From: Mariprofundaceae bacterium
Lineage (GTDB): Bacteria; Pseudomonadota; Zetaproteobacteria; Mariprofundales; Mariprofundaceae
Assembly: GCA_030950585.1 (NCBI GenBank)
Contig: JAUZRG010000033.1
Coordinates: 1-64,000 of the forward strand
Length of the DNA stretch: 64,000 nucleotides
Direction of reading: 5' to 3'
The position numbers were made by a program, and so were the translations under genes. Under the pieces are notes generated by a model. The model was given only the letters and a program-made list of their open reading frames with translations. It did no database searches and was not told the origin of the DNA. This document shows, piece after piece, positions 9,801 through 50,771 of the stretch. Position 1 is the stretch's first letter. Each line of letters starts with the position of its first letter.

Positions 9801-10290
9801 TGCAGCTTTGCATGATGTAGCCAATATGCCATTGCAAGCTTACCCTATGGAAGCGCCTTATCCTGATCGTCAAATGCGCATGCAAGATCATATTAGTTTG
9901 TTTCAACCTGAAGGTGGGCCTGCTGGTTTGGGTTTGATTCGTGGCTATAAACAAATTGATGCCAATGAGTGGTTTTTTAAAGCGCATTTTTATGAAGATC
10001 CTGTGAATCCTGGCTCTTTGGGTTTGGAAGCGATGATGCAACTTTTGAAAGTCATGGCTGCTCAGCGTTGGAATGGTGGAAAAGACATGCAATTTCAATC
10101 TGTTGCATTGCATGAAAAGCATGAGTGGATCTACCGTGGCCAAGTCGTACCGCACAACAAAGAAGTGATCGTTGAGGCTTGGTTAACAGAAGTGGATGAT
10201 GATCAACAAATCCTATGGGCAGATGGTTTATTGCAAGTTGATGGCAAAGTCATTTATCAAATGAAGCGTTTTAGCTTGCAGGCAAGTTAA
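3859..10290 (+). CDS. PfaC/Pfa3-type polyunsaturated fatty acid synthase subunit (KS-CLF-AT-DH-DH)
   Basis: A 2143-residue iterative megasynthase. I chose the TTG at 3859 because GGGGAG sits 7 bases upstream (3846-3851) and the KS domain starts directly after it; the frame is open back to GTG 3754. Domains in order: ketosynthase with active Cys in DAACASS (C187) and both His motifs (CHATGT, NIGHT); a chain-length-factor KS with the Cys replaced (SEGASG, near 5750); an acyltransferase (FVFPGSGNHFHGMG near 6590, HSLGE near 6841); an acidic linker; then two FabA-like double-hotdog dehydratases, each with a catalytic half (HFVDDKVMPG near 8865, HFYEDPVNPG near 9985). I see no acyl carrier protein, ketoreductase or enoyl reductase, so partner subunits must be encoded elsewhere. 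KS-CLF-AT-DH-DH is the order of myxobacterial Pfa3; marine PfaC lacks the AT. The exact product is unknown. Confidence 0.9.
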   Translation: MSEKNRLPEIAIVGMGCLFPESPSPEALWQHVLQAKSTVEDVPADRWYLSADKACADTVQEDRVYSQKGCFIHPESLHVDNDLFDIEPDLLAKLDPLFQVLFHAAGAALKDAGDFATWNHDRTGVILGNLVLPTETASALSRECLLKGVVPHTSTDSLNLYAAGMPSGLLAQALHLGGTSFTLDAACASSLYALKMAMDELQSGRADVMLTGGVSRPDAQYTQMGFSQLRALSKRGKSAPFDALGDGLLVGEGSGVFVLKRLDDALKANNPIYGVIRGVGLSNDLSGKLLAPSSEGQLRAMRAAYAQAAWSPSEVELIECHATGTPLGDAVEFASLKTLWADSHASSSACVLGSVKSNIGHTLTAAGSAAMVKVLKAMQQKILPPTVNFKQASPDLGMEDSPFDVLTQSKAWDTEQPTRKAAISAFGFGGINAHVLIEEYVPSAWQRNVLEPQKNTVPISIVGIAAQVGQSKRLDALSRCVFSQQQPPLAPSRAWHTEDQQEGYFISEVKLAQATFRIPPKEMEEMLPQQLLMLQLAHEAWKDAGLEKGGERTGVYVGLGLDMNSTNFHLRWAMAQHADGLLSSEALQHVNHLLTPALNANRTMGALGSVVASRIARELGCGGPSFTLSSEGASGLHALATALHALEAGEIDTAIVGAVDMQADVRVLKHRQNDELAAEGGVVFVLRRANVAAYGQLSSVLVQQKLNAVVLPAHVEVMPSFHDCWGHVGAADGLFQLYGSLLCMHQHRLPASAVREQAQYWLHDRAWGSRQAQVMHQSVEGSQALLLITESAMRKQVNAPLGEEQLFVFAAPNPDALLQQLRQFEPRCQAETEMLVLASSLFGQIQVGETRAALVARSLSELLAQLSLLCAHLEQRPQHGVGGQADDLLHICARDRVFYQPCDAQQGKLAFVFPGSGNHFHGMGRDVFLRWPHLLDGQEKQTKTLATQFQADYFWHGVHSQENHTAFILAHVALGIALSDVLTQTDLAPQAAIPHSLGETVSFFSLGVWHERDEMLRRMLQTKLFTHELHSEGQAARRFWQLEPEEKVAWVIGVVDVSAAVVRAALVERCYLLIVNTPSQCVIGGQRGQVEKLVSQLGVTVLWLDGVSIAHTPVVAEVADDYRALHAFSSTQRPEGVAFYSDVTAKPLWINAEKAAKSRLDHALYTLNYPATIEQAYADGVRTFIEVGPGRSCTHMIETILAERPYMARAICHAGEDSCSTLLRTFASLFVVGLNIKLDWLYSQAQERAKQFLCIPIKSGVLDKIVLETILQREKVVVAEKVEKSQLKQEETMNENEHHVEHEDVKSTTDALTTQDMSGVPALIAGHLASLQRIEVASALAHQSFLSCSQSITENILSHAQVQMQMVQNAAILPEDVAAETSNAVLNREQCMEFAVGSIAAVFGDTYREIDQYPVRVRLPDEPLMLVDEVVLLEAEANSMSHGRIVTHHHVGARPWYLDQGHIPVCIAVESGQADLMLAAYLGIDFLAKGKATYRLLDAAVVFHADLPTQGQVIEYDIHVDRFFEHEGTWFMNFHFEGSVDGQPLISMQDGCAGFFSQAALDAGEGIKLNQWEKKQIVSSLPQGWQTWVSMQQESYDEAQLNGLRAGDLVQCFGADFSNRVRDPLGLPSGRMNLVHRVRCIEPEGGRFGLGRIVAEADIAADDWFLTCHFVDDKVMPGTLMYECCNHTLRIFLMRMGWISERDSSWWGPIKGVQTRLKCRGQVLDTTKVVSYEIVVKEMGYHPEPYAIVEANMYADSKFIVRFDTMSIQLNGSNEDILKAIWQKKVSVVKPAIYDKSRIVAFCEGKPSEAFGDRYQIFDHERKIARLPRDPYAFLDRITAVSGEPWCMEAGASAQAQYDVPVDAWYFAQNRQASMSFAVLLEIALQPCGWLAAYVGSALTSDVDLRFRNLGGKATQYLAVTANSGTLTIDVTLTRVSSSAGMIIQSYTMAVRSAKGLVYEGTTDFGFFSKEALAQQVGVAGAALHDVANMPLQAYPMEAPYPDRQMRMQDHISLFQPEGGPAGLGLIRGYKQIDANEWFFKAHFYEDPVNPGSLGLEAMMQLLKVMAAQRWNGGKDMQFQSVALHEKHEWIYRGQVVPHNKEVIVEAWLTEVDDDQQILWADGLLQVDGKVIYQMKRFSLQAS

Positions 10291-11333
10291 TGCGTTATCA
10301 AAAGGTTTGGATGGATGCGATTGGCTATCAATTGGGTGAGCTTGAGGTGAGCAGCGCAGTGCTTGAAAAACGACTTGCCCCAAGTTACAAAAAATTACAT
10401 TTCCCCCAAGGCCAATTAGAGGCTTTAACGGGTGTGCAGCATCGGCGTTGGTGGCCTAAAGGTCATCGCTTGAGTGATGGTGCGGTTGCAGCGGCACGCC
10501 ATGCCTTGGCAAAAACCGATGTTCCTATTTCCGCACTTGGGGCTGTGGTGTATACCGCTGTGGCTCGTGAACAATTCGAGCCTGCAACAGCTTGTCGGGT
10601 CGCGGGTTTATTGGGTGTGGAACCGAGCACTTTGGTGTTTGACATCAGTAATGCCTGTTTGGGCATGCTCAATGGTATGCTAGATGTGGCCAATCGTATT
10701 GAATTGGGTCAAATCAAAGCGGGTTTGGTGGTGGCTTGTGAGTCATCACGCGATATTATTAATGAAGCCATCGCCGCGATATTGGCCGATTCTAGCATGA
10801 AAAACATGGTCATGTGGTTGGCAACCTTAACGGGTGGTTCAGGTGCGGTTGCCGTGGTACTCACAGATGGTTCTTTTTCTCACGAAGATAAACCGCGCTT
10901 GCATGGCGCGAGTTGGCAGGCTGCACCTCAGTTTCATGATTTATGCAGCTGGGGCTTGGAAGAAGATCAACCGCGCCGTTTTCGTGAAGTTATGCGCACA
11001 GACTCTATCCCACTCATGAAAAACGGTGTTGCTCTCGGTCAGAAGACATGGGCTGTATTCTTAAAAGAGCAAGGCTGGTCGGCAGAAAATGTTGATAAAG
11101 TGATTTGTCATCAAGTGGGTTCATCCAATCAAAAAGCGGTGTTGGGTGCTTTGCAAATTTCATTAGAAAAAGATTTTGTTACCTTTCCATCGTTGGGAAA
11201 TATGGGGCCAGTCTCTGTGCCTTTAACAGCAGCCATTGCTGCTGAAAAAGATTTTTTAAAGACTGGAGATCATGTGGCTTGGTTGGGCATTGGTAGTGGC
11301 CTTAATTGCATGATGCTGGCTTTTGAGTGGTAG
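10290..11333 (+). CDS. oleA: OleA-like thiolase-fold acyl-CoA/ACP condensing enzyme
   Basis: A 347-residue KASIII/thiolase-fold protein. Cys123 (DISNACLGM), His275 (ICHQVG) and Asn305 (LGNMGPVS) form the catalytic triad. Glu97, 26 residues before the Cys, has the same spacing as the Glu117/Cys143 pair described for Xanthomonas OleA. The RRWWPKGH and SGLNCMM stretches resemble Shewanella OleA as I remember it. OleA performs head-to-head Claisen condensation of two fatty acyl thioesters to a beta-keto acid, the first step to long-chain olefins or ketones. The start overlaps the stop of the megasynthase (TAATG), so the two are translationally coupled. The usual partners oleB, oleC and oleD are not in the window. 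An ordinary FabH-like role is the alternative, but the whole-length match favours OleA. Confidence 0.82.
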   Translation: MRYQKVWMDAIGYQLGELEVSSAVLEKRLAPSYKKLHFPQGQLEALTGVQHRRWWPKGHRLSDGAVAAARHALAKTDVPISALGAVVYTAVAREQFEPATACRVAGLLGVEPSTLVFDISNACLGMLNGMLDVANRIELGQIKAGLVVACESSRDIINEAIAAILADSSMKNMVMWLATLTGGSGAVAVVLTDGSFSHEDKPRLHGASWQAAPQFHDLCSWGLEEDQPRRFREVMRTDSIPLMKNGVALGQKTWAVFLKEQGWSAENVDKVICHQVGSSNQKAVLGALQISLEKDFVTFPSLGNMGPVSVPLTAAIAAEKDFLKTGDHVAWLGIGSGLNCMMLAFEW

Positions 11334-24083: not shown

Positions 24084-25976
24084 ATGCGAAAACCATACTT
24101 GTTATTTATATTGATACTGCCACTCATCTTTAGTGGTTGTGTTGGAAAGAAAGTAGCTTTTGATCAAAATGAGGCACGCGAAAACAACGTGCGTTCGGAT
24201 ATGGCAGCGATTGGCAATCAAGCATGGCATCAACAGTTAAACGTACCTTTGTCGTTAGAGCAGATGATGGGTCTTGCCAAAAAACATAACCTTGAATATT
24301 TAATCAAAGAATTAGAAGCGGAACAAGCAGATCACGAGTTAGCAGCTGTTAAATTAGCTTCTTTGCCAAAAGCAAAAGTGGATGTGAATACCAATTACGA
24401 TACGACTGATGGCTTTGCCTTTAATAAGAATCAAGCAACAGGCACAAAGAGTGCAACAGCGGCCACATCATCGCAAAAGTTTGGTGGAACAGCCAATATT
24501 TCGTTGCAATGGAGTGTTTTAGATTACGGTATTTCTTATTATCGTGCCAAGCAAAAAGTTTATGCCCGTGCAATTGTTGATGAACGTCAACGCCGTGCTT
24601 TGCATAAATTGGCGATGAATTTAGTGCAAGATTATATGCGTGTTTCTGTGGCAGACGCGGGCTTGAAATTAGCCAAAATTGCTTTGGATGACTTAAAAGA
24701 TGCAAGTCGCCGCATGGAAAAATTATCTAAAATTAATGAAATCGATGAATACAACGCGCTACAATACAAGAGCAAACAAATTGCACTTGAAAATGCAAAA
24801 GAAGCACTTAGAGAAGAAAAAGATGCATCAATGCTGCGCTTAGCGCAAACTATAGGTGTGACACCAGGTACCAGTTTTCGTGTACAAATGCCTGACTTCT
24901 CAGACAGCATGATGCCAAGTGTGTTTGATGTTGATACTTTGGTTGAAGAAGCGCTTCGCCGCCGCCCTGAATTGTTTGAAGCTGATTTACAAGAACGAAT
25001 CACGCTTGAAGAAGTGAAAGCCATCGGTCTACAACGTTGGCCAAACTTTGCAGGTATTCTTGGTTTGAACTTTAACTCCAATAAATTTTTATATGCCAAT
25101 AGCTGGGCCAATATTGGTTCTGCTTTGTCATGGGATTTGTTGTCTATTCCTCGTTTGAATCAAGAGAAATCAGCCAAAGAAGTCAGAGCAAAGGTTCAGG
25201 TCAGAGAACGTCAATTACTTGCTTTGGGTGTGATGGCAGAAGTTCATTTAGCCAATGCTGATTACCAATTGAAGGGTGAGCGTTACCGTCGTATGAAGGA
25301 TGAGCTTAAGTTGCATCGCGCGCTTTTAAGCTTAGCCAGAACACGTGCACGTGCAGGTAAGCTGAGTAATGTTGATTTAATCGCCCATGAAGCTTCAGCG
25401 ATTGAAAAATCAATACAATTGGCACGTTCTTATGCTGATTGGGTGGAAGCGTTACAAAAGATTTACTATGCTACTCAAAAAGAAACACCTTCAATGGATA
25501 ACTTAACAGCCATGCCTGTTTTAGCCTCTATTGGCTATCGCAATCAACCTGTTTCTTTGCAAAAAGTGTCAACGACGAAAGATGCTAAAGTAGCAGTAGC
25601 TGCACCTAAAGAAGAAGTTGCTGTTGTGAAAGCAATTACACCGCCTGTTGTGAAAGCAAAACCAGTAGCCGTGGCTGCATGGAAAGAAGTGAAGCCTGTG
25701 GCGGTTCAGCCACGTTTGCGTGCATCTAAGCCTAAGGGCGCGAAGATGCTTTATCATGTCTATTTGCCTAAGCCTCGTGATATGTCGAATGAGTTTGTGA
25801 AAGGTCAGTTAAGCTGGTTGCGTAAAAATGGTTTCCCTGATGCTTATTTGAAACGCAGAGGCAATGGATCACGTATTATGATCGGTGTGTTTTCACAAAA
25901 ACATCGGGCTGATGAAATCGTTTATTTATTACAACGTGAAAATTTGCACGCACGCATTGATCCTGTTCGCATATAA
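24084..25976 (+). CDS. TolC-like outer-membrane efflux lipoprotein with C-terminal SPOR-like domain
   Basis: A 630-residue lipoprotein with lipobox FSGC (Cys 19). Residues of about 55-470 form the two helical-hairpin repeats of an outer-membrane efflux protein (PLSLEQMMGLAKKHNLEYLI start, long coiled coils, RRPELFEADLQERI). A Lys/Ala/Val/Pro-rich linker (about 475-550) leads to a roughly 78-residue SPOR-like end (YHVYLPKPRD ... GSRIMIGVFSQKHRADEI), a fold that binds denuded septal glycan. TolC proteins usually lack such a domain. AGGAGA precedes the start. It sits just before the giant Ig-repeat gene, and no ABC transporter or membrane fusion protein is nearby. Export of the neighbour is a reasonable guess, not shown. 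Confidence 0.85.
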   Translation: MRKPYLLFILILPLIFSGCVGKKVAFDQNEARENNVRSDMAAIGNQAWHQQLNVPLSLEQMMGLAKKHNLEYLIKELEAEQADHELAAVKLASLPKAKVDVNTNYDTTDGFAFNKNQATGTKSATAATSSQKFGGTANISLQWSVLDYGISYYRAKQKVYARAIVDERQRRALHKLAMNLVQDYMRVSVADAGLKLAKIALDDLKDASRRMEKLSKINEIDEYNALQYKSKQIALENAKEALREEKDASMLRLAQTIGVTPGTSFRVQMPDFSDSMMPSVFDVDTLVEEALRRRPELFEADLQERITLEEVKAIGLQRWPNFAGILGLNFNSNKFLYANSWANIGSALSWDLLSIPRLNQEKSAKEVRAKVQVRERQLLALGVMAEVHLANADYQLKGERYRRMKDELKLHRALLSLARTRARAGKLSNVDLIAHEASAIEKSIQLARSYADWVEALQKIYYATQKETPSMDNLTAMPVLASIGYRNQPVSLQKVSTTKDAKVAVAAPKEEVAVVKAITPPVVKAKPVAVAAWKEVKPVAVQPRLRASKPKGAKMLYHVYLPKPRDMSNEFVKGQLSWLRKNGFPDAYLKRRGNGSRIMIGVFSQKHRADEIVYLLQRENLHARIDPVRI

Positions 25977-26055
25977 TTCGCGATTCATTTAATTTTTGCC
26001 AAAATGTTCTTATGCCATCACTTTAACGTGGTGGCTGTTTAAGAGGTAAGGTCAC

Positions 26056-29000
26056 ATGGCTATTACAAAAAAAACAATCAAGGAAGTATGGCAACGGCTG
26101 AGTAAGTCAGAGCCTATTGCCAAAGCGCCGTTGCTTTCTATCATGCCTTTGGAAGATCGCATCGTGCTTGATGGTGGTTTAGTTGGAGAGGCCTTAAGTA
26201 TCGGTCTGGATGCACCATCGCCAACTGCTTTAAGAAATGTTGCCTTGATTGCATCGGATGCACCTGATATTCAAGGTATCACAGCTGCTTTTGCGGCTAG
26301 CAATACCCAAGTGATTGTAATTGATGCTCAGGCAAGCCAAGCCGATATTTTAAACCAATTGACTCAGTTGAGTGCCGATGCTCGTGCGCCGATTGCCTCG
26401 ATTTCTCTTTTTTCTCATGCGCGTTCAGGTAGTTTCCAATTGGGTCAAACGGCCGTGTCTGGTGATAATGTCGGTGACCTTGCTAATATATGGCAGGCCA
26501 TTGATGCTGCCTTAGTTGATGGTGGAAACTTCAATTTATATGGCTGTAACCTTGCTGCTGATGGCAACGGACAACAACTTATTAATGATATTGCAAGCCA
26601 AACCAATGCACAGGTTTATGGCTCCAATGATATTTCAGGTCAAAGTGGTGACTGGGTTTTAGAAATTAGTTCGCAAGGTGCTCAGGCGTTTGATGTTGCG
26701 AATACCGTGGTTGATGAAGCTTTGTTGAGTCAGGTGCAGGGCGATTTGTTATTTACGGTCACCACTGTTGGTGCTGATACCGCAGCTCCTTTTATCACCA
26801 AAGACGTGCGGCCAACCTTTCAGGGTGGTGCATCTATTGGTGCACAAATGACCATGAGTATTAGCAATGGCGCAGGTGCAGTTGTGCAAACAGGATCAAC
26901 TTTTGGGGGTGGTGGTGGTACTTGGAGTTGGAATGCACCCGCTAATCTAGTGGATGGTAATTATACCTTAACCATTGCCGATGCCAATAATACGGCTCTT
27001 GCACCTATTGCTGTGGCCTTTAGCGTGGATACTGTGGCACCAGCCCTTGTGTATAGCACTCCAGCTTCAACAGGCTTAACCTCTCCAACGATCACAGGCA
27101 CGGTGACAGACCCTGCCAGTGTCGTGACTGTAACGATTAGTGTGACGGGTGGTACATCGCAGGTACTGACGGCTGCTGTTGATGCTGTGGGTAATTGGGC
27201 AACTACACCTGTAACACCTCTGGTTGCTGGTACAGTTTATAGTGTCAGTGTGACGGCACATGATGCAGCAGGAAATGCTGATCAAAATAATATTTCCCTT
27301 AGGCCTTTAGCGGTTACGTTGCCTGCAACACCGCATACTTTAACAGCCATTGGTGCAACCAATACAGCTGTGGCAAATGGCACAGGTGATAGTCGTTTCT
27401 CCATTAAGCTGGATGTGGTGAATAACCTCGGTGCGACAGTACAATCAGTGGTAACACCTATAAGCACCAATGTTTTGGGTGCAAGTGTGTGGTCTCATAA
27501 TTTTCAGGGTCTTGGTGATGGCGTATATACGGTGAGCGCCACACAAGTTGATTCCAATAACCCTGCAACCGTGATGAATATTGCTTTGAGCACGGCTATG
27601 ACGCTTGACCGCACTGCTCTTGCGCCTGCATTAGTGAGTGTTACGGGAGCCACAGTCATTGGTGGCCAAAACTATATTAACAATATAACACCGAGCTTGG
27701 TGGGTGGCATTGGTAGCGTAGAGGCTGGCGCCACGATTAGCCTTACAGAGACAACAGCAGGGATTGCAGCAACGACCATACCAGCAGTAACTGCGCTTGC
27801 AAATGGGTCTTGGAGCCTTGTCTTTCCGACGTTGAGCAATGGTCAGCATACCTTTGCGGTGAATCAAACCGATGTCTTGGGTAATAGTTCTCAGTCAACG
27901 ATTATTACATTTACTGTGGATACGGCCGTTACAGGTTTAAGTATTGCACCAACAGCTACATCGGCTGTAAGTTTTCCAACTATTTCAGGTACAGCTGAAC
28001 CCTCAGCTGATCCAGCCACAGTGCCCCATACTGTTTCGGTGACGGTTTCATCAGGTGTGAATGCCATTGTTGTCATCAATAATGTCGCTGTGGATGCAGC
28101 TGGTAACTGGAGCGTTGCCGTACCACGCACGAATCCTCTCACAGCCGCTGCTATTCAGCCTTTAAATGGTGTATACACGGTGACGGTCAACCAGACGGAT
28201 GCTTTGAGCAATATTGCCATCCCTGTAACGCAAAGTTTAACGGTGAATACGTTGGTGGCACAACCAAGTATCAGCTTAGCTGCGACGGTCGCAAATCCAG
28301 CCTTGGTTCAAACGCCTGTGTTATTAAATGGCGTGGGTATTAATGGTGCCACGATTCAAGTGACAGCAACGAATATGGCCACGTTGGTACAAACGATTTT
28401 AACGACAACACCTATCGTGACCAATGGTCTTTGGTCTTTAACCAATACTGGCTTGGTGGCTGCAAATCTTGTGGATGGAAATTATAGCTTTTCAGTCGTT
28501 CAAATCGTTGATGTGGCTGCTAGCCCAGCATCAACGGTGTTTGGCACATCTGCTGCAATCAATAGCTTGCAAAATTTACAAATAGATACCGTTGTTGTTG
28601 CACCTGTGATTGCAACGATTAATGGTGCAGGCGTTGTTGGTGCAGCTCACGGAACGAATCTCAATACTTTATCAGCTGTTGTTGGCGTTGAAGCCAATGC
28701 CAGTGCAAATATTGTATTAACGGATTCTTTGGGTGCGATTGTTGATCAAAGAACGCTTACTGCGTTACCGGCAACGCCCACAAACATCACTTATACTGCA
28801 CCACAAAATATTGTGGATGGTCTTTATACGCTTACCGTGACACAAACAGATGCAGCGAGTAATCAAAGTATTGCAAGTGCTATTGCTTTGACTGTAGATA
28901 CGGTGGCGTTGGCTCCTGTAGTCAATGCCATTGAAACGAGTACGACAGCTGTGTTTGTCGATTTGGCAACAGGTGTTAAATATGTCAATGCCACGACAGG

Positions 29001-32000
29001 CCCTGTAACATTCACAGGAACTGCGGAAGCAGGTGCGACGATCAGTGTTGCAAATTTAACAGTGGTCAATGCTTTAGGTGTTGTGACGGCTCTTAGCCCA
29101 TTACCTTCAGTGCTTGTAGGTGTGAACGGTGCATGGAGTTTAGTGGTCACGACACCTGTAGGAACATCTTTGGCTGCTGGAGCGCAAACCGCTCAAATTA
29201 CTCAAACAGATGTGTTGGCTAACACAAGTACTGCAAGCAATATGAATTTTGTGATTGATCAAGTGGTGAGTAATTTTACATTACCCGCTATTCCCGCACA
29301 AACCAGTAGTTTCCCTGTTATTACAGGTACTGGTGAAACAGGTGGCTCTGTTGTGGTTACTGTCAGTGGCTTAGGGCTTGTGACACCCTTAACATTAAAT
29401 GCTGGCCCTATCGCTCAGGGTAGTTGGTCAGTGACTGTTCCTCAAAACTTAGTGAATGGTAATTACACCGTCAATGCGACCTTTACAGATATTGCTCAAA
29501 ATGCATTAGCGGCTGCACCCGTGACGATGAGTATTGCTGCTGTTGTAGATCCACCATCTTTAAATGTTGCCACGCCAACGAAGTCGGGTGTGCTTGATCC
29601 TGCTGTGATCAAAGGTATTGGTATTGTAGGATCAACGGTGAATATTAGCGTTACCGATACGGTCACAGCTGCGGTTGTTGGTAACTATGTGGTGACTGTT
29701 GCTGCAAATGGAGCGGCGACGACCAATACATGGAGTTTGACGAATAATTTACTGATCGATGCACTTGGTGTTGCTTTGGTCGATAAAAGCTATCAAGTCA
29801 GTGTTACTCAAACCACGACAGCGGCCAATGCAGGTAATGCTGGTGGCGTTGTGGGTACATCAGCAGCAACAGTGGGCACGGTTGTATTGGATAATATCGC
29901 ATCCGCACCTGTTGTGGCTACTATTGATGCAACACTTCCACCTTTGCCTTTGCCAGTGGGTACGGTGAATGCAGGCGCAATTGAATTTGTAACGAATAAT
30001 ACACGACCAAATATTGCCTTTAATCTTGAGCCAGGATCAACACTTGAGTTAACATTAAATGGTGCTGCTTTAACTTCGTTACAAGATATTGGTAATACAG
30101 GTGTGATTACGTTTACACCGAATGCGGCGTTGAGTGCTGTTGTGACACCGCCTGCGACCTTTGCACAGCATACTTTGCTTGCAACTCAAGTCGACATAGC
30201 TGGCAATAGAAGTGCGCTTAGCACGGTATTGATTGATGTGGATATGCAAGTGGGTGCAGTCACCGCTAATCCAGTCGGTACATTATTTGGTGTAACACAA
30301 GTGGTGAATAGTGCGCAAATGGCGAACTTTACGCTCAGTGGTACAGGTGAAGTAGGGGCTACAGTCACAGTTTCAGGCCTGAATACGGTCGGTCTTGGTG
30401 GGCTTGTTGCTCCGATGGTTCCTGCGGTTGTGACTGTGGATGTGTTGGGAAATTGGACGCATACCTTTGCGGCTGGAACTATCTTAGCAGAAGGGGCGCA
30501 ACGAGCGACCTTAACACAGCAAGATAATGTTGCTTATGCAAAGCTAAACCCTATTTCTAGTTTGGGTGTGCAAAACACAGCTGTAAGTACGGTATTAGAT
30601 TTTAGTGTTGATACCACAGTCACACCATTAACCATTGATTCACTTGGCACCGCATTGGCTCCTGCTACGATTAGTACAACCAATAGACCGTTGATTCAAG
30701 GTACTGCTGAGGCAAACCGCAATGCTGCGATTGCGACAACAGTGAATGTGCAAGTGTTTAATGTGGCAAACCCTTTGGCTCCAGTATTAGTGGGAACATT
30801 TGCGCCTATTGCTGACCCTTTAACAGGCCAGTGGTCTGTGAGCAATGCGATGTATCTGGCTTCTTTAGCCAATGGCAGTTATTCAGCTACCGTCACTCAA
30901 ATGGATGAAGCGGGTAATACCTTAAGTTCATCTCAGGTTTTCACTGTGGCTACGACGGTTGCAAGCCCTGCTTTTGATCCTTTGATGCCCAGTGCTGCTA
31001 GCCCTGGTTTAGCTGCTACACCTGTTATTTCTGGTACGGCGACTGTGCATGGAGCGCAGATTCATCTTACGGCAACAGCCGTTGCTGATGCATTGGGAAC
31101 CCCTGTGGTGGGGGCTATACCGATTGTCTTGGCCGATGCTTTAACCAATCCTATTTTAGTTAATGGTACACAATGGTCTTTAGCCAATACAGTTTTAAAT
31201 CCGCTTGTTGGCTTACCTTTGTTAGCCGATGGCTTTTATCAAATTAATGTGAGTCAAGTTTTACCCGATGGTGCCAATGCAACCTTGGTGGGGTCTTCGT
31301 TAGCGACATCTCAAGTATTGCAAATTGATACTGTTGCGGCACCTTTTAATGTCACAATAGATCCAATCACCTTTAAAGTGGAAAGCTTGGTTAGTTATCC
31401 TGTGATTGCAGGTGTTGCAGAGATAGCGCCAGTCGGTGGTGTGGCAACGGTTGCTGTGGTCGTGAGTTCACAAATTCCAGTTGGATCACCTGTTGGAACC
31501 TTGCCTGCAACAACGGTCACGATGAATGCCACCGTTGATGCCTTGGGTAATTGGAGTACCGCCGTTACTCAAGCTTTAGCTAATGGATTGTATGACATTA
31601 ATTTAACGCAAACAGATCATTTAGGGAATACAGCAACTTTGTTAAGCACATTAAACGTGAATGCCACTGTGCCTGTGCCAACGCTCACTTTGCCAACATC
31701 GCCGACCCAATTACTTGGGACGGGGAATCCACTAACCTCGCAAACATTTTTGATTCAAGGAGATAGCGGTGGTGGTGTGCCGCCTGTGCCACAAGGTAGT
31801 ACGGTGAATATTAGTCTTCATAGCATCGCTGCTTTGGCACTAAATCCACTTGCTCCACCATCATTGCTAACAACAGCTACTGTAGGTGATCCTGCGGTGG
31901 TGGGTAATCAGCCGACAGCATGGGCTTTAACGAATCAAGCCTTGGTGCAGGCTCTTTTAGCTGATGGTGAATATCAAGTGACGGTGACTCAAACGACATT

Positions 32001-35000
32001 AGCACCCTCTGGTTTTGATCGTATTGGTACCTCTGCATCTATCGTGGGTCGTTTCGTGATTGATACGGCCGCGCTATCACCTGTTGTCAACTTGGTAGAT
32101 GCCGTGGCTCCAGCTCTGGGTAATGTGGTAAATACTGCTAATCTAACACCTTCAATTCAATTAAGTGTAGAGCCTGGAGCGACGGTTCGCATTAGTGTGA
32201 ATGGCTTGCTACAAACGCCTGTGGTGGCCAATAATTTGGGTCAACTCACATTCGTTCCGACATTAACCCAAATGAATGCAGGTGCTACGGCAGCAGCGAA
32301 TAGCATCGTTTTTAGTCAAGTAGATGAAGCAGGGAATGCTAGCCCTGTGGCAACGACATTAACCATCAATGTTGATAATGCGGCATTGGCACCTGCTGCT
32401 AGCTTAGATCAAGCAGCAATGACGCTTGCAAATCCAACAGCTTTGGTAACTGTTTTAGGTACGCAAACATTTGTCAATACAGCCACGCCAATTTTGAGTG
32501 GTAGTGCTGAACCCGGTGCCAGTATCACGATTACAGGTCTTAATCCTGTGCCAGCTGCGCCGATAACAGTGCTTGCAGTGACGGATGTTTTTGGTGTCAC
32601 CACGTGGTCAGCAGTTTTACCTGTTTTGGCGCAGGGTGCTCAAAGTCTATCCATTATTCAAACGGATGCTTTGTTAAATGTCAGTCCTGCAACGCTTGTG
32701 AATTTTACCGTGGATACGGCGGTGATAGGTTTTGCTTATAATGGTATTGACCCTATCACAACCACGATTCCAAGTGCTTCGAGCTTTCCTGTGCTTTCAG
32801 GTAGTGCCGAGGTCGCTGTGGGTAACACAGCCTATCAAGTGAATGTGACAGTGGTGTCTCAGGTTGCCGCTGGACAAATTCCAGGAATCAATATTGCAAG
32901 TACCGCTGCGGTTGACGCTCAAGGTGCTTGGCAAGTTGATCTTGGTGCGCTTGTGCCAGCTGGCTTGGCAAATGGTTTATATACTGTAACGGCAACGATG
33001 ACGGATGCTGCGCAAAATTCAGCGACCATCACCAATACCTTGGATGTAAATAAACAAGTCTTGGCACCTGTTTTGAATGCATCCACGACAGCTGTGAATC
33101 CAAGTTTGGCCAACACACCTGTGATTCTCAATGGCTTAGCAGGTTCAGTAGAAGCTTTGGCTGTTGTGAACATTGAGATTGTTCAGGGCGCGACGGTATT
33201 GCAAACACATCAAGTCACAGCAGATAACACAGGTGCGTGGTTTATTCCAAACTCAGCTATTGCAACGCCTCCTTTGGGTGTAGCAACCCTTGCTGATGGC
33301 AATTATATCATACGTGTTTCGCAAACAACGGTTGCTGCAACATCGTTGGTCTCATTGTCTCCTTTGGCCATTGATACGGTTGCACAAACTGTGGTGATTA
33401 ATACAATTGATGCGGTGGCTCCTGCTTTGGGTGCAACCAGTGTGACCACAAATAACTTAACACCAACAGTGACTTTAACCATTGAGCCAGGTGCAACGCT
33501 CAATGTCACCGTTAATGGTGTTTTGAGTATCAATGTTGCGACTGCTGACCCTGTGACAGGTGTTGTTTCTTTTATCTTACCAACTTTAAATGCTTCTGCG
33601 TTAGGAACCGCTAATTCACTGACGTTTACCCAAACAGATATTGCAGGGAACACCAATATTGTGGGGTCGAACATGGGTATTGTGGTCGATAATGCTACGA
33701 CTGGTTTGAGTATTAACCCAGTTGGTACCTTGCTTGGAGCCAATGATGTTGTGGGTGGCCTCGGTGGTAATCAGCCCATTCTAACGGGTTCAGGTGAAGC
33801 GGGTGCTACCGTTAATGTACAGGTTTTTGATGTTGCAACCAACACATTGGTGACAACGCTTCCACCTGCGCTTGTGGGTGCAGCAGTTGGCGGTATTGCG
33901 ACTTGGAGCGCCACTGTTCCGATCGCTTTGCTTGATGGTGCTTATAGCGTTCAAGTCACACAGACGGACTTGGTGGGTAATAGCACTGTTGTGGGTCAAG
34001 AAGTGATTCGGAATTTTAGCGTTGATACCACAGTGACACCATTAAGCATGACTTCTTTGGCTAGTGTGACAACAACAAGTTATCCAACTTTGACAGGTGT
34101 GGCAGAATTTAATCGTGGGGCTACACTAAGCCAAGTGAGCATTAACATTAGCAATGCTGCCGGCAATGTTGCCTTGGCAGCACCGATTGCCATTCCAGCT
34201 GTGACGGTGACCCAACAAGCGGGTGCAGGCTTAACAGGAGCATGGAGCACAGTGATTGATACACCATTGAGTAATGGTAGTTATACGGTCACCGTGACGC
34301 AAACCGATGAACTGGGAAATGTGGCATCTTTTGTGCAAACGCTCACCGTGAATACGGCAGTCGCTTCACCAACCCTTGTGCTTAGCCCTAGTGATGCCGT
34401 GGGTGGTACCACAAATCCAGCCACACAGTTAACCACCTTGGTCTCAGGGACTGGTCTTGCAGGGGCAACGATTAATTTATTTGCAGTGCAAACAGCTGAT
34501 ATATTAGGAAATTTAATCCCTATCGTGAATCAAGTGCCAGTTACTTTAACGCCTGTGGTGGTGGATGCCGCTGGTTTATGGCAAATGAACCTTGTGAATC
34601 AACAAAGCAGCATGGGTGTGTTGCCAGATGGCAGCTATAGCATTCGTGCAAGTCAAACAACAGCGAATTTAGCCAATCCAACCCTTGATCCTGCAGCGGC
34701 GACATACATTGTGGGAACCTCATTAGAAGCCATGCAATCGTTGGTCATTGATAAAACAGCACAAGCACCTGTTGTGAACCCTGTAGGACAATTATTAGGT
34801 GGGGTGCGGGTAGCCAATGCCACGCCTGTGATGACGGGTACCGCTGAAGCCAATGCCACAGTTCAAGTTTCTGGTCTCATCGCTTTAAACAATACACCGC
34901 TACCGATTCAAACGGTGGTGGCAAATGCTTTGGGTGCATGGCAGCTCAATATTTTAACACCATTACAGCAAGGTGTGCAAACTGCCAATGTGGTGCAAGT

Positions 35001-37959
35001 TGATATTTTGAAAAATACCTCTATCTCTACAGTTTTAAATTTTGAAGTAGATAGCAGTGTGACAAATTTAACGGTGTTGGCAGGTCAGCAGGGCACATTA
35101 AATCCTGTGATTAGTGGTACTGCTGAAATTCCTCGCGGTGCAACTGCTGCGACAGTCACAGTGACGGTGACTGATCCAATCAACGCCAATACTGTGATTT
35201 CTGTGGTTCCTAATGTCGCTGTGAATAGTCTCAATGGTACATGGAGCACCACATTGCCCGCCTTTGCTGCTATGGGTAGTTTTGATGTGACAGTGACGCA
35301 AACCGATGAAACGGGGAATGTGGGTTCTGCATTTCAAACCTTAACGCTTGTGCCATTGAATCCACCAACTATTTTATTCCCAAATGTCACAAATTTACCC
35401 GCCACAGCGGTGGGTACATCCTCGACTGTGTCAGGAACGGCTGATTTTAATGTGCCAGTGAAAATCACCTTTACGCAAGTTGATAGCTTAGCTAATCCGT
35501 TAGCACCTGCTTCTCTGCCTGTGGTCATGACCACAGTTGCAGACGGGCTAGGTAACTGGGCACTTGATAATACCGCTTTGGCGACTGCCTTGGGTGCGGG
35601 ACCCAGCCAATATTATCAAATATCGACGATTCAAGGTTTGGGTAGTGCTAATGCCTCTCCGATTGATATTAAACCGGGTTTAATGCAGGTGGACACAGTT
35701 GCACCAGCCGCACCACTACCTACATTTAATAGTTTAGCTGCCGTGCCTGTGGAAGGTGAAAATTTCACGATTGCTGTGCATGGTGAAATTGGAACCTCAA
35801 CGAATATTACTTTTGTGGCGATTGCGCCCAATGTAAATATCTCTCCCGCAGTGAGTTTTATTAGTCCTCAACTTGTCGCTGATCCGCTCATTGTTCCACC
35901 AGCTCTACCACAAGGTTTAGCCACATCTCAGGGTATTTCATTGTTGGCAGGTAATTATCAAATGACCACGGTATTGACTGACACTGCGGGCAATAGTTCA
36001 TCGGTTACGCAAACGATCAACATTGCTGCTCCTCAGCCAAATGTCATTAATGTGGTGCAGGCTCCTGTGGCAACAGATACCAATGCCGTCTTGTTTAACG
36101 ATCCGAACCAGCTGAGTGGTGCGCCTGTTATCGTATCTGCCAATGGTAATATCACAGGGGCATCGCCAACAATTTTGAATTTGCATCCTACCATTGATCC
36201 TTTAACAGGTTTGAGCACCAATGATGCCTTTAACCAAATTCAACGGCCAATTGATCCTTTGACGGGTTTAGCTATTCAGACATCTCTGAAAGCTGGGGTA
36301 AGCTCAGCAGGTATCAACCCCATTACAGGGGCTGCTTCAGGCATTGATCCTGTGACAGGCGCGAATGTATCGACAGTGATCACTAACAATGCTTCACCAC
36401 TGATCTCTGGTCAGTTACCCGTTGCATCGGTACAAACCGTGGATATTTTCTTTAAAGCGGTCAACCCTGCAACAGGTGCGGAAACACTTGATTTTCTTGT
36501 GCCTGTGACCACCAATGCTTTGGGTCAATGGACTGTGGATTTGGCAGCACAAGGCTTAGTGCTTGCTGATGGTCTGCATCGTATCTTTGCTTCTGGTATT
36601 GGTATTGGCGGTGTATCCAACACCTTTGATATGGTGGTTGATACACAAAAACCCATTTCACCTGTGATTTTAAATATGGCTCCTACAGCAGCCAATGGTG
36701 GTGTGCCACAGGTCGCTGGAACCTTTGATCTTATTGGTACAGCCGAACCTGGAAGTCGGGTGATTGTGCAAATGAATCCTACTTTTGTGGTCACAGCCGA
36801 TGCTTTGGGTAATTGGAGTATTACAGGGATTACCCTGACACCCAATACCAACTATCGCATGTTCCTTTTTAGCGTGGACATTGCAACCAATACGACGATG
36901 GTCACACCCTTTAACTTCACGGTGAATAAAGTCGGTGGCGTGGTGATTAATGCCCCGACCACATATGTAACAGACCCATCATCACCAACGGTGGTATTGG
37001 CAGGTACGGTCATTATTGATGGTTTATTAGAGAATATTACCACTCAAGCCATTAATAATAACTTGGCTGATATTTGGGCGAAGAGCCAACAGCATGGTGG
37101 TTTATTAGAAGATATTCGTCTTGCTGCTATTAATGGTATTCCTGTTGAACCCATTGATCAAAAACGCTTGAATCCTTCCGATATGCCAGCCGATCGTATT
37201 GAAGATAATGGTTATATTGGTTATTTACGTATCAGTGCAGAGTCACCTGATTTGAATGCAACGGCGAATGAAACACTTGATCGTACCTCAAAATCACGTT
37301 TTCGCAATGCTTTGAATCATTTGCAACAAGCTGAAACCACTATTGGTCATGGTAACCGTTTAACTGAAGGTCGTATTGCGATGTTTGCACCTGAGTTTCA
37401 ATTGGGTGAAACGCAAATGAATATGAACGATGCTTTTGCTGTGTTGGATGATGATGCTAAATTGCGTTTGTTTGCAATGGATGATCGTAATGTTCGTATT
37501 CATTTCGATTTTGATCAATATGCACTTCAGAAAGAAGGCGTGAATGATATGTCGGTCTTCTCCGACTGGATTAATCGAGAGTGGGGACAGTGGATTGGTG
37601 TTTGGGGTTCGCAACATATACATGTGGTGGGTCACACTGATTTTATCGGAACTGTGGAATACAATGATAAACTCGGTATGCGCCGTGCCTTTGTGGCGGG
37701 CGAATACCTTGTGAAGCATTTAGGCTTTGCGGTTGAACACATTAGTTTTGATTCTTGGGGTAAGGATGCTCCTGTGGATTTGGGTGAATCAGATGAAAGT
37801 CGTGCTCAAAATCGTCGAGTAGAAATTAATATTGGTGATACAGAAACAATTTCACCTAAATTTCCTTCTGATAGTGAAGTTGGCAAGTTATCTGTGATTC
37901 AACGTGACTTTATTCAATTCTTGCAAACGGGTGATTTTGGCCGATTCAGCAAAGAATAG
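26056..37959 (+). CDS. Giant Ig-repeat surface protein with LEPR-like motif, DUF4347-type and OmpA domains
   Basis: A 3967-residue protein. Near the N-terminus is PLEDRIVLDGG (residues 31-41), the LEPRxxxDG-type motif often placed before DUF4347. A DUF4347-like domain spans about 55-230 (VALIASDAPDIQGITAAF, SLFSHARSGSFQLG, YGCNLAADG). Then come about 30 Ig-like repeats of 100-125 residues, each ending like DGxYxVxVTQTDxxGN and VDT, with an alternating GNWS core strand. The C-terminal 200 residues hold an OmpA-like murein-binding domain (IHFDFDQYALQ, VVGHTDFIGT, NRRVEINI). I noticed only one Cys. There is no Sec signal peptide at the start. GAGGTAAGG precedes the ATG. It probably forms a long fibre tied to murein; adhesion or biofilm is inferred. 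Confidence 0.9.
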   Translation: MAITKKTIKEVWQRLSKSEPIAKAPLLSIMPLEDRIVLDGGLVGEALSIGLDAPSPTALRNVALIASDAPDIQGITAAFAASNTQVIVIDAQASQADILNQLTQLSADARAPIASISLFSHARSGSFQLGQTAVSGDNVGDLANIWQAIDAALVDGGNFNLYGCNLAADGNGQQLINDIASQTNAQVYGSNDISGQSGDWVLEISSQGAQAFDVANTVVDEALLSQVQGDLLFTVTTVGADTAAPFITKDVRPTFQGGASIGAQMTMSISNGAGAVVQTGSTFGGGGGTWSWNAPANLVDGNYTLTIADANNTALAPIAVAFSVDTVAPALVYSTPASTGLTSPTITGTVTDPASVVTVTISVTGGTSQVLTAAVDAVGNWATTPVTPLVAGTVYSVSVTAHDAAGNADQNNISLRPLAVTLPATPHTLTAIGATNTAVANGTGDSRFSIKLDVVNNLGATVQSVVTPISTNVLGASVWSHNFQGLGDGVYTVSATQVDSNNPATVMNIALSTAMTLDRTALAPALVSVTGATVIGGQNYINNITPSLVGGIGSVEAGATISLTETTAGIAATTIPAVTALANGSWSLVFPTLSNGQHTFAVNQTDVLGNSSQSTIITFTVDTAVTGLSIAPTATSAVSFPTISGTAEPSADPATVPHTVSVTVSSGVNAIVVINNVAVDAAGNWSVAVPRTNPLTAAAIQPLNGVYTVTVNQTDALSNIAIPVTQSLTVNTLVAQPSISLAATVANPALVQTPVLLNGVGINGATIQVTATNMATLVQTILTTTPIVTNGLWSLTNTGLVAANLVDGNYSFSVVQIVDVAASPASTVFGTSAAINSLQNLQIDTVVVAPVIATINGAGVVGAAHGTNLNTLSAVVGVEANASANIVLTDSLGAIVDQRTLTALPATPTNITYTAPQNIVDGLYTLTVTQTDAASNQSIASAIALTVDTVALAPVVNAIETSTTAVFVDLATGVKYVNATTGPVTFTGTAEAGATISVANLTVVNALGVVTALSPLPSVLVGVNGAWSLVVTTPVGTSLAAGAQTAQITQTDVLANTSTASNMNFVIDQVVSNFTLPAIPAQTSSFPVITGTGETGGSVVVTVSGLGLVTPLTLNAGPIAQGSWSVTVPQNLVNGNYTVNATFTDIAQNALAAAPVTMSIAAVVDPPSLNVATPTKSGVLDPAVIKGIGIVGSTVNISVTDTVTAAVVGNYVVTVAANGAATTNTWSLTNNLLIDALGVALVDKSYQVSVTQTTTAANAGNAGGVVGTSAATVGTVVLDNIASAPVVATIDATLPPLPLPVGTVNAGAIEFVTNNTRPNIAFNLEPGSTLELTLNGAALTSLQDIGNTGVITFTPNAALSAVVTPPATFAQHTLLATQVDIAGNRSALSTVLIDVDMQVGAVTANPVGTLFGVTQVVNSAQMANFTLSGTGEVGATVTVSGLNTVGLGGLVAPMVPAVVTVDVLGNWTHTFAAGTILAEGAQRATLTQQDNVAYAKLNPISSLGVQNTAVSTVLDFSVDTTVTPLTIDSLGTALAPATISTTNRPLIQGTAEANRNAAIATTVNVQVFNVANPLAPVLVGTFAPIADPLTGQWSVSNAMYLASLANGSYSATVTQMDEAGNTLSSSQVFTVATTVASPAFDPLMPSAASPGLAATPVISGTATVHGAQIHLTATAVADALGTPVVGAIPIVLADALTNPILVNGTQWSLANTVLNPLVGLPLLADGFYQINVSQVLPDGANATLVGSSLATSQVLQIDTVAAPFNVTIDPITFKVESLVSYPVIAGVAEIAPVGGVATVAVVVSSQIPVGSPVGTLPATTVTMNATVDALGNWSTAVTQALANGLYDINLTQTDHLGNTATLLSTLNVNATVPVPTLTLPTSPTQLLGTGNPLTSQTFLIQGDSGGGVPPVPQGSTVNISLHSIAALALNPLAPPSLLTTATVGDPAVVGNQPTAWALTNQALVQALLADGEYQVTVTQTTLAPSGFDRIGTSASIVGRFVIDTAALSPVVNLVDAVAPALGNVVNTANLTPSIQLSVEPGATVRISVNGLLQTPVVANNLGQLTFVPTLTQMNAGATAAANSIVFSQVDEAGNASPVATTLTINVDNAALAPAASLDQAAMTLANPTALVTVLGTQTFVNTATPILSGSAEPGASITITGLNPVPAAPITVLAVTDVFGVTTWSAVLPVLAQGAQSLSIIQTDALLNVSPATLVNFTVDTAVIGFAYNGIDPITTTIPSASSFPVLSGSAEVAVGNTAYQVNVTVVSQVAAGQIPGINIASTAAVDAQGAWQVDLGALVPAGLANGLYTVTATMTDAAQNSATITNTLDVNKQVLAPVLNASTTAVNPSLANTPVILNGLAGSVEALAVVNIEIVQGATVLQTHQVTADNTGAWFIPNSAIATPPLGVATLADGNYIIRVSQTTVAATSLVSLSPLAIDTVAQTVVINTIDAVAPALGATSVTTNNLTPTVTLTIEPGATLNVTVNGVLSINVATADPVTGVVSFILPTLNASALGTANSLTFTQTDIAGNTNIVGSNMGIVVDNATTGLSINPVGTLLGANDVVGGLGGNQPILTGSGEAGATVNVQVFDVATNTLVTTLPPALVGAAVGGIATWSATVPIALLDGAYSVQVTQTDLVGNSTVVGQEVIRNFSVDTTVTPLSMTSLASVTTTSYPTLTGVAEFNRGATLSQVSINISNAAGNVALAAPIAIPAVTVTQQAGAGLTGAWSTVIDTPLSNGSYTVTVTQTDELGNVASFVQTLTVNTAVASPTLVLSPSDAVGGTTNPATQLTTLVSGTGLAGATINLFAVQTADILGNLIPIVNQVPVTLTPVVVDAAGLWQMNLVNQQSSMGVLPDGSYSIRASQTTANLANPTLDPAAATYIVGTSLEAMQSLVIDKTAQAPVVNPVGQLLGGVRVANATPVMTGTAEANATVQVSGLIALNNTPLPIQTVVANALGAWQLNILTPLQQGVQTANVVQVDILKNTSISTVLNFEVDSSVTNLTVLAGQQGTLNPVISGTAEIPRGATAATVTVTVTDPINANTVISVVPNVAVNSLNGTWSTTLPAFAAMGSFDVTVTQTDETGNVGSAFQTLTLVPLNPPTILFPNVTNLPATAVGTSSTVSGTADFNVPVKITFTQVDSLANPLAPASLPVVMTTVADGLGNWALDNTALATALGAGPSQYYQISTIQGLGSANASPIDIKPGLMQVDTVAPAAPLPTFNSLAAVPVEGENFTIAVHGEIGTSTNITFVAIAPNVNISPAVSFISPQLVADPLIVPPALPQGLATSQGISLLAGNYQMTTVLTDTAGNSSSVTQTINIAAPQPNVINVVQAPVATDTNAVLFNDPNQLSGAPVIVSANGNITGASPTILNLHPTIDPLTGLSTNDAFNQIQRPIDPLTGLAIQTSLKAGVSSAGINPITGAASGIDPVTGANVSTVITNNASPLISGQLPVASVQTVDIFFKAVNPATGAETLDFLVPVTTNALGQWTVDLAAQGLVLADGLHRIFASGIGIGGVSNTFDMVVDTQKPISPVILNMAPTAANGGVPQVAGTFDLIGTAEPGSRVIVQMNPTFVVTADALGNWSITGITLTPNTNYRMFLFSVDIATNTTMVTPFNFTVNKVGGVVINAPTTYVTDPSSPTVVLAGTVIIDGLLENITTQAINNNLADIWAKSQQHGGLLEDIRLAAINGIPVEPIDQKRLNPSDMPADRIEDNGYIGYLRISAESPDLNATANETLDRTSKSRFRNALNHLQQAETTIGHGNRLTEGRIAMFAPEFQLGETQMNMNDAFAVLDDDAKLRLFAMDDRNVRIHFDFDQYALQKEGVNDMSVFSDWINREWGQWIGVWGSQHIHVVGHTDFIGTVEYNDKLGMRRAFVAGEYLVKHLGFAVEHISFDSWGKDAPVDLGESDESRAQNRRVEINIGDTETISPKFPSDSEVGKLSVIQRDFIQFLQTGDFGRFSKE
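27900..35700 (+). repeat. Four-domain (ABCD) super-repeat inside the giant gene
   Basis: The Ig-like units fall into four classes that recur in fixed order: A (APVV...EPGATLxVTVNG), B (GTAEPGASITVTGLN), C (SFPVISGTAE...VTVSS) and D (VASPxL...NPxxTPVxLNGxG). C units lie near 27970, 29310, 30690, 31395, 32785, 34078 and 35100. Full tetrads repeat every 1.3-1.4 kb. One A-B pair is missing between the third and fourth C units, and one A before the last. Confidence 0.75.
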
Positions 37960-37964
37960 CGTTT

Positions 37965-38002
37965 AAAAGGCTTCTTTTTTGATATGAAGAAAGAAGCCTT
38001 TT
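37965..38002 (+). promoter_or_regulatory. apbE: Hairpin enclosing the apbE start codon
   Basis: A perfect 13-bp inverted repeat: AAAAGGCTTCTTT (37965-37977) and AAAGAAGCCTTTT (37990-38002), with a 12-base loop that contains the apbE ATG (37984-37986). It can end transcription of the giant gene or hide the apbE start and its AAAGG ribosome site, so apbE translation would depend on opening it. Confidence 0.6.
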
Positions 38003-38997
38003 CACAGCAATCTTGTGCACCTATTTTCATCCTGTACTTAGCAATGCTTTTTCTTTTGAGTGCTTGTCATACCGACGAAGTGATCGAAGAGCATGCTTTT
38101 TTGATGGGAACGATGGTATCTGTGACTGTGGCAGAATCAGAAAAAGATTCTCAAGTTCGCTTAGCAATTAAAGCCAGTATGCAGGAAATACAGCGTGTGG
38201 AAGCATTGTTTTCCACCCACCTTGATAACAGCGTGCAAGCTTTTAATCAGAGTCATGTTGGTGTATGGCAAGACTTAGATCCAGAGGTTTCTGTATTATT
38301 AGCCCAAGCAGTGCGAATCATGGCACAAAGTCAGCAAGCTTTTCATCCGATGTTGGGTCAATTAAAACAACTATGGGCGTTTCAGTCCGAAAGCAAGCAA
38401 GTTCCACCTGAGGCATCTATTCAGATTTTGGTGCAAGCAATAAAAAAAGCAACATTAGAGCAAAAAGGCACACAGTGGCGACGTTCGCATGCCGCACTTC
38501 GATTGGATTTTGGTGCAATTGCCAAAGGTTATGCCATTGATCGTGCGATTAAGGTTTTGCGTCAACAGGGTATTGGCAATGCTATTGTGAATGCTGGGGG
38601 CGATATTCGTCTCATCGGTCAACGTTTTGGTCGTGCTTGGCGTATTGGCATCAAACACCCGAGACAGGCAAATCAAATATTGGGTTGGATGGCGCTTAAG
38701 GGGGATGTTAGTTTGGTGACCTCAGGTGATTATGAGCGTTTTTTTATCGTAGGCGACAAGCGCTACCATCATATTTTAGATGCACGCACGGGTTATCCCG
38801 CCACAAAATCACAAAGTGTCACTGTCATTGCTAAAAATGCCACGCTTGCCGATGCATGGAGTACCGCATTGTTTGTGCTTGGCTCAAATTCACAGGGCTT
38901 GGTGACGGCCCCCACTGATTTAGATTATTTAATCGTGGATCGGCAGGGCAAGAAAAGCATGTCTTTGGGCATGCAAAAACTATTTCATTCGCAGTAG
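37984..38997 (+). CDS. apbE: FAD:protein FMN transferase ApbE (lipoprotein)
   Basis: A 337-residue lipoprotein, lipobox LLSAC, that would face the periplasm. ApbE moves FMN from FAD to a Thr of target proteins such as NqrC and RnfG. Family features are MGTMVSVTV near the N-terminus, LDFGAIAKGYAIDRA, NAIVNAGGDIRLIG, SGDYERFF and HHILDARTGYPA, which together hold FAD and Mg. The start codon is in the loop of a hairpin. The end overlaps aguB tail to tail by 13 bases. No flavinylation target is visible in the window. Confidence 0.93.
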   Translation: MKKEAFSQQSCAPIFILYLAMLFLLSACHTDEVIEEHAFLMGTMVSVTVAESEKDSQVRLAIKASMQEIQRVEALFSTHLDNSVQAFNQSHVGVWQDLDPEVSVLLAQAVRIMAQSQQAFHPMLGQLKQLWAFQSESKQVPPEASIQILVQAIKKATLEQKGTQWRRSHAALRLDFGAIAKGYAIDRAIKVLRQQGIGNAIVNAGGDIRLIGQRFGRAWRIGIKHPRQANQILGWMALKGDVSLVTSGDYERFFIVGDKRYHHILDARTGYPATKSQSVTVIAKNATLADAWSTALFVLGSNSQGLVTAPTDLDYLIVDRQGKKSMSLGMQKLFHSQ

Positions 38998-50057: not shown

Positions 50058-50771
50058 ATGACACTTGATGATGCCAAAAAAGAATTGAAACACGCACTAG
50101 ATGTGATGTTAGATGATTTAGACACAAAAGATGATGTGAAGTTATGCCATCAAATGCTGGATGATATTAAAGTAGGTTTGAATATCTTTAAGCCTTATCG
50201 AACAGATAAGAAGGTTAGTTTTTTTGGTTCTGCCCAATTAGAGCAATCTCACCCCAGTTGCTTGCAAGTGAAAAAGTTTGCACATATTTTGGAAAATCAT
50301 GGTTATATGACCATCACAGGTGGTGGTGAAGGTATCATGTGCGCTGCCAATGATGGCGCTGGTGAAGCGCATTCATTTGCCATTAATATCAAACTTCCAG
50401 AAGATAAAAAGCAAGATGCCAATCATGTGATGCGCCAGAGTTCACGTTATTTCTGTTGTCATTATTTCTTTACGCGTAAATTTTTCTTCTTAAAAGAAAG
50501 CCATGCTGTGGTGTTGGCTGAAGGTGGTTTTGGTACCTTGGATGAAACCTTTGAAACCTTAACATTATTGCAAACAGGTCGCACAAGAAAAGTTCCAGTG
50601 GTCTTTTTAGAAGAACCCAATGGGTGTTTTTGGGCTCCTTTTATTGAGCAGTGGTTGCCACATCTATTATCAGAAGGGTTGATTCACCCTGAAGATGCCG
50701 ACCTCTTTTTGCATACGGATGATTTAGATCAAGCTCGGGCTTATATTACTGGGTTTTCAGCATTCGATTAA
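50058..50771 (+). CDS. LOG-family (lysine decarboxylase-like) protein
   Basis: A 237-residue Rossmann-fold protein of the LOG/TIGR00730-type family, which cleave nucleotide 5'-monophosphates. Seen are VSFFGSAQ, ITGGGEGIMCAANDGA, RKFFFLKESHAVVLAEGGFGTLDE (the PGGxGTxxE motif, with Glu in place of Pro). It has an N-terminal helical extension of about 50 residues. Cytokinin-type LOG enzymes are the best known, but the substrate here is open. An in-frame TTG at 50049 is an alternative start. The 3' end overlaps the next, convergent, gene by 26 bases. Confidence 0.85.
   Translation: MTLDDAKKELKHALDVMLDDLDTKDDVKLCHQMLDDIKVGLNIFKPYRTDKKVSFFGSAQLEQSHPSCLQVKKFAHILENHGYMTITGGGEGIMCAANDGAGEAHSFAINIKLPEDKKQDANHVMRQSSRYFCCHYFFTRKFFFLKESHAVVLAEGGFGTLDETFETLTLLQTGRTRKVPVVFLEEPNGCFWAPFIEQWLPHLLSEGLIHPEDADLFLHTDDLDQARAYITGFSAFD

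Follow-up and report, generated by a model that had tools for sequence, protein, structure and literature searches.

During the analysis of a 64,000-nucleotide stretch of a Mariprofundaceae genome (contig JAUZRG010000033.1, positions 1 to 64,000; referred to here as the window) we encountered two adjacent genes on the plus strand, the first of which (24084..25976) encodes a TolC-family outer-membrane factor of 630 residues that is a lipoprotein, while the second (26056..37959) encodes a giant surface protein of 3967 residues containing Ig repeats and an OmpA domain. The two genes are adjacent and located 3' of the division cluster ftsA-ftsZ-lpxC, as described in the initial annotation, with a single small minus-strand open reading frame intervening; both open reading frames are intact and co-oriented, and a gap of 79 bp separates them. 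Scans for promoters and terminators gave hits at chance levels only. A gene for an ApbE-family (FMN transferase) lipoprotein (window positions 37984-38997) begins 24 bp past the gene for the giant and is possibly co-transcribed with it; this gene was not found 3' of lpxC in relatives.

The N-terminus of the TolC-family protein (MRKPYLLFILILPLIFSGC) is a lipoprotein signal with the lipobox LIFSGC and Cys19, and the protein contains two OEP/TolC stretches (Pfam OEP, 3e-26). Columns that are invariant among 42 homologues are retained in the alignment of the window protein, which has no more than 27% identity to its homologues and forms a very long branch (3.44) on a tree of the TolC core; given this branch, the protein could have changed its job. 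The initial annotation assigned a peptidoglycan-binding type of end to both members of the pair, an assignment that is upheld by Pfam and by comparison with Pal for the giant (see below), but not for the TolC lipoprotein, the tail of which shows no match to the Pfam SPOR family (PF05036), even at E<5. Against a SPOR profile built from homologues this tail scores only 4.1 bits, a value equalled by 16 of 2000 shuffles, and the 50 Foldseek matches listed for a model of the tail include no SPOR entry, the nearest PDB folds being generic ferredoxin-like ones. In the same model (AF2 single-sequence, pLDDT 75) the C-terminal domain (plus strand, 25746..25973, residues ~555-630) has the order b-a-b-b-a-b, which is that of SPOR domains, and on the basis of this topology we consider the tail to be probably SPOR-like.

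The initial annotation overlooked two elements at the N-terminus of the giant, namely a LEDRIVLDGG motif and a DUF4347 domain. The stretch LEDRIVLDG (plus strand, 26149..26175, residues 32-40) is a variant of the LEPRxxFDGA (LEPR-XLL) motif, and a motif of the form LExRxx[FL]D[GAS] is present in all 61 homologous giants that have an intact N-terminus, where it precedes DUF4347 by 40-102 residues. The DUF4347 domain itself (plus strand, 26239..26685, residues 62-210; Pfam 1.8e-24) was modelled from 29 sequences (pLDDT 88), and the best PDB match of this model in Foldseek is Tce1 (9qpe_G, TM 0.68), followed by caspases (TM 0.43-0.48); a caspase-like (clan CD type) cysteine-protease fold is newly predicted here for DUF4347. 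PDB sequence matches of DUF4347 to de novo TIM barrels were discarded, Tce1 alone being meaningful. The putative catalytic dyad consists of His121 (26416..26418), which is nearly invariant in the DUF4347 alignment, and Cys164 (26545..26547), which is conserved in this alignment, both encoded on the plus strand; in the model these residues come after strands 56-62 and 96-105, at the ends of neighbouring strands. Cys164 is the sole cysteine among the 3967 residues of the giant, compared with about 50 expected from the other proteins of the window, and 55 of the 62 homologous giants contain no cysteine beyond the DUF4347 domain. Since the giant has lost every other cysteine, it is likely that Cys164 has been retained for catalysis. 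Tce1 (PA0256) of P. aeruginosa is a DUF4347 cargo effector of the T6SS and a putative cysteine protease (PMC13323088), which shares its fold (predicted in the case of the giant) and the His/Cys dyad with the domain described here; in contrast to this T6SS-delivered effector, DUF4347 in the window forms the N-terminal domain of an adhesin.

The DUF4347 domain is followed by a stalk of Ig-like repeats of the Big_13 and Ca_tandemer types (plus strand, 26743..36855, the end being approximate), within which Pfam recognises about 16 Big_13 stretches and the NCBI model NF033510, which represents a Ca2+-stabilised adhesin repeat, recognises 13; a search of the giant for tandem repeats at the DNA level revealed none. 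The protein ends with an OmpA-like domain of the peptidoglycan-binding type (plus strand, 37504..37815, residues 3817-3920; Pfam OmpA 2.3e-10, 41.1 bits compared with a cut-off of 27.2) and then a tail of 47 residues. This domain aligns with solved Pal structures (4g4v, 4.4e-12) and retains the GHTD, RRA and NRRVEIN elements, and it is plausible that the giant fibre is tethered to murein through it. An OmpA domain is found in the window giant only and in none of the 62 other giants. This singular feature, together with the long branch of the TolC lipoprotein and the lack of an adjoining adaptor open reading frame, is what would be expected if the TolC-family protein were a diverged efflux duct or a structural tether, with the giant travelling by another route and being held in the periplasm or at the outer membrane by its OmpA domain. 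We regard this as quite unlikely, as the two genes remain intact next to each other, the giant lacks an evident Sec signal, and the retention of a LEPR-like motif, of the DUF4347 His and Cys and of an otherwise cysteine-free sequence would fit an exported protein under selection.

A search of 61 related genomes yielded TolC homologues with 22-27% identity, the matches being strong in 12 genomes including that of the window, and a scan of 85,000 species gave hundreds more loci; the 80 loci that were kept are mostly from Pseudomonas, with other carriers including Chromobacterium, Roseateles and Pectobacterium. In many Pseudomonadota these homologues form part of a recurring cluster, which encodes a giant with LEPRxxFDGA, DUF4347 and Ig repeats, a TolC lipoprotein, two MFPs (a short one of ~265 residues and a second of ~455) and an M50-MFP fusion of ~700 residues, the first half of which is an M50 membrane metalloprotease and the second half an MFP. 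The gene for the giant usually precedes that for TolC, an order that is reversed in the window. A LEPR-type motif, a DUF4347 domain with His and Cys, and an adjacent TolC of the family are all present at the window locus, while MFP1, MFP2 and M50-MFP are absent from the window and are found in trans on two other contigs, C117 and C198. The view that this make-up is without precedent is not supported, since adaptors are encoded in trans and clusters of this kind are common in Pseudomonadota. In none of the loci scanned does a same-strand ABC-type open reading frame occur at a distance of up to 6 kb from the cluster genes.

The pairing of the two genes is also conserved beyond the window, as TolC homologues adjoin LEPR/DUF4347 Ig giants in most loci examined; a DUF4347 giant ends at most 400 bp from TolC in 41 of the 63 related loci that show a TolC open reading frame, several of the remainder being cut off by the locus edge. 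The outcome that the initial annotation had named as refuting, a lack of co-occurrence in relatives, was thus not observed. Distant MFP partners, which had been envisaged in the initial annotation, were likewise found, the M50/MFP proteins tracking TolC genome-wide. DUF4347 occurs in 14 of the 61 relatives, including all 12 with a strong TolC match (Fisher 5e-11), and all 14 of these genomes encode M50-MFP (Fisher 5e-12), while among 399 Pseudomonadota genomes TolC is present in 80, M50-MFP in 77 and both in 75 (p = 2.4e-72), at thresholds (E<1e-20 for TolC and E<1e-50 for M50) that were chosen after the tables had been seen and with genome lists compiled by hand; the p-values for co-occurrence ignore shared ancestry, and many families are involved. 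One relative (G010) encodes a giant of 4160 residues with LEERLLLSAD and DUF4347 (L155:6348-18830) and an M50-MFP on the same contig, and no TolC of the window's family was found in this genome. The MFP2 encoded at L034:11469-12779 possesses a cytoplasmic N-terminal part with a weak GAF match (0.0017, under the cut-off), and it is perhaps the case that this GAF-like part serves as a sensor domain in the exporter.

The tails of the TolC family are variable. Among 43 diverse TolCs, Pfam identified SPOR in seven, OmpA in four and SH3 in one, and a second SH3-like tail was recognised by eye. As there are at least six tail changes on the TolC-core tree, wall-binding modules have been repeatedly gained or lost by this family, and their recurrence makes it plausible that these TolCs are anchored to murein; if so, this would suggest that interchangeable modules can fix export ducts to the cell wall. 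In one genome (G016; L035:17308-19901 and L036:3-674) the TolC open reading frame comes to a stop and OmpA domains are encoded further on in a different frame, which represents a frameshift, an assembly error or a split gene with tandem OmpA copies, and at L037:13683-16118 the TolC tail leads into a long EEMRKA repeat that reaches the contig end. The initial annotation suggested that the pair could form a machine placed at division sites, and one could envisage a septal machine in which the SPOR domain would take TolC to denuded glycans and the adhesin would be displayed at new poles. The SPOR order of the window tail is consistent with this, as are the real SPOR domains borne by seven homologues at the equivalent place, but the tails in the family are mostly OmpA, SH3 or absent, that of the window protein has no specific SPOR match, and the division-cluster neighbourhood is not conserved: in 10 relatives the genes 3' of lpxC are variable and include neither TolC nor the giant, two of these stretches being short owing to a contig end. 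The location of the pair next to the division genes is therefore a local feature of the window's genome and lends no support to a septal machine, which we consider to be very unlikely.

The genome from which the window derives is 99% complete and encodes two DUF4347 proteins (one on contig C58 and one in the window), two TolCs of the family, of which one is in the window and the other on C198, and two MFP/MFP/M50-MFP sets, carried by C198 and by C117. The initial annotation noted that no ABC transporter or fusion protein was present; this is correct at the locus but not for the genome as a whole, which contains these two sets in addition to one conventional T1SS on a further contig, C137. The initial account was thus partly right. 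C198 carries a full cluster comprising a giant cut by the contig end, a TolC with an OmpA tail, MFP1, MFP2 and M50-MFP, and C58 carries the start of a giant (LEPRVLLDAALADTAAKIV) with DUF4347. For the second giant we observed a start with LEPRVLLDAA, DUF4347 and a cadherin-like stretch (L152:405-4316) and a terminal part containing an extended collagen-like GST repeat with weak Scl/Lcl matches (L027:17264-18760); the C58 start and the C198 end probably constitute one gene split over two contigs.

The set on C117 (L165:5418-9599) consists of MFP2 (5418-6809), MFP1 (6778-7527) and M50-MFP (7503-9599) and is flanked by a pilin-like and an aminotransferase-like gene, neither a TolC nor a giant being encoded next to it. 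The HEFxH motif is retained in the M50 proteins of both copies in this genome, and the YydH/LiaK and daptide metalloprotease models (NF058609, NF041824) recognise the M50 portion of the fusion on C198; in contrast to the M50 proteins represented by these models, which mature small peptides, that of C198 is fused to an MFP and is tied to giants. By elimination, as the C117 set is without a TolC or giant and the window pair without adaptors, this set would be the missing half of the pair, and judging from gene content we interpret the window pair as the outer half of a second copy that is split. Both the pair and the C117 set are unusually diverged, and among 78 genomes examined across the class there is no relative with close copies of either half and none with both halves together.

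In the T1SS on C137 the genes for a TolC, a 731-residue ABC_membrane protein and a HlyD-type MFP lie side by side, and this system offers a more conventional explanation, namely ordinary type 1 secretion in which the C137 ABC/MFP proteins export the giant via either the window or the C137 TolC while the M50/MFP proteins have another role, for example in processing or regulation. The genes for T1SS components need not be linked to that for their adhesin (PMC7730722), and the Ca-stabilised Ig repeats of the giant resemble those of T1SS adhesins. This explanation is nevertheless unlikely, given that the M50-MFP set follows window-type TolC and DUF4347 across the phylum, that the clusters contain no ABC gene and that the C137 set possesses a TolC of its own. 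We favour, at a probability of about 0.6, the reading that the window pair represents one half, comprising the outer-membrane factor and the substrate, of a type-1-like system that exports and anchors giant adhesins and in which the ABC exporter would be replaced by adaptors and an M50 membrane protease.

From these observations we infer an export route, a choice of partners, a cleavage and a binding to murein that would operate as follows. Two MFPs and M50-MFP, most likely those of C117 and otherwise those of C198, would form a complex in the inner membrane that hands the giant to the window TolC lipoprotein, which would act as its exit duct in a single-step passage. The N-terminal LEPR-type motif and the caspase-like DUF4347 domain would serve in recognition, cutting or retention, and DUF4347 may cleave or hold the N-terminus of the giant. 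The Ig stalk would then emerge and fold externally, probably with Ca2+, and the OmpA domain of the giant and the SPOR-like domain of TolC would bind murein, so that the adhesin is kept on the cell. External folding of Ca-bound Ig domains could also pull the giant out. Pulling by folding on the outside has been proposed for RTX proteins. The long branch of the window TolC, the reversed gene order, the variant LEDR motif, the unspecific SPOR-like tail and the ABC protein of C137 all argue against the M50/MFP export model, the weakest point of which is that it names no energy source.

Type 1 systems for giant adhesins, such as LapA/LapBCE, BapA and SiiE, employ a TolC-type duct and MFP adaptors for a cysteine-poor substrate with Ig or Ca repeats. 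The window-type cluster is similar to these in its TolC duct, MFPs and cysteine-poor Ig/Ca-repeat giant, but differs in that an M50-MFP is present instead of an ABC gene, in the LEPR motif and DUF4347 at the N-terminus of the giant, and in the murein-binding-type tail on TolC or the giant. The combination of an ABC transporter with an MFP and TolC, which is the classical criterion for a T1SS, is absent from the cluster and is found only unlinked, on C137. Unless the absence of an ABC protein is confirmed experimentally, the LEPR/DUF4347-M50 system should be considered a variant of type 1 secretion. It is possible, but only as a tentative suggestion, that it constitutes a separate class of trans-envelope export, in which LEPR/caspase-like giants would be transported or processed, in the absence of an ABC protein, by M50-MFP, two further adaptors and a TolC anchored to murein, and of which the window would contain a split version with OmpA on the stalk. 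The nearest described adhesin cluster is that of BapP in Pseudoalteromonas tunicata, an Ig-like Ca2+-dependent biofilm adhesin with secretion genes alongside (PMC12153261); it is comparable in the proximity of an Ig/Ca2+ adhesin to secretion genes, but unlike the window-type cluster it includes genes for an ABC transporter and for a LolD-like ATPase, and its TolC is distant (PMC12153261).

Sequence alone defines the families of large LEPR-XLL and DUF4347 proteins (NF012209, PF14252), to which the window giant is related through its DUF4347 domain and its variant LEPR motif, and the open literature searched yielded neither an exporter nor a function for such giants. This literature also contained nothing that ties LEPR-XLL or DUF4347 to TolC, and nothing on the combination of M50, HlyD, TolC and an adhesin; subscription papers lay outside the search and an earlier description is possible. 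The window pair is probably a split and diverged member of a widespread putative export system that is apparently undescribed in the open literature searched. If this reading is right, bacteria such as Pseudomonas, Chromobacterium and Roseateles would possess, in a very common cluster, a type-1-like route minus its defining motor, and a function would be provided for two orphan labels, LEPR-XLL and DUF4347.

Elsewhere in the window, a minus-strand open reading frame of 770 residues (50746-53058) has no Pfam match at E<0.001. A multidomain synthase of 2178 residues (3754-11333), containing a ketoacyl synthase, an acyltransferase and two FabA domains, is followed by a KAS III-like gene and, judging from its domains, looks like an enzyme of polyunsaturated fatty-acid or polyketide synthesis.
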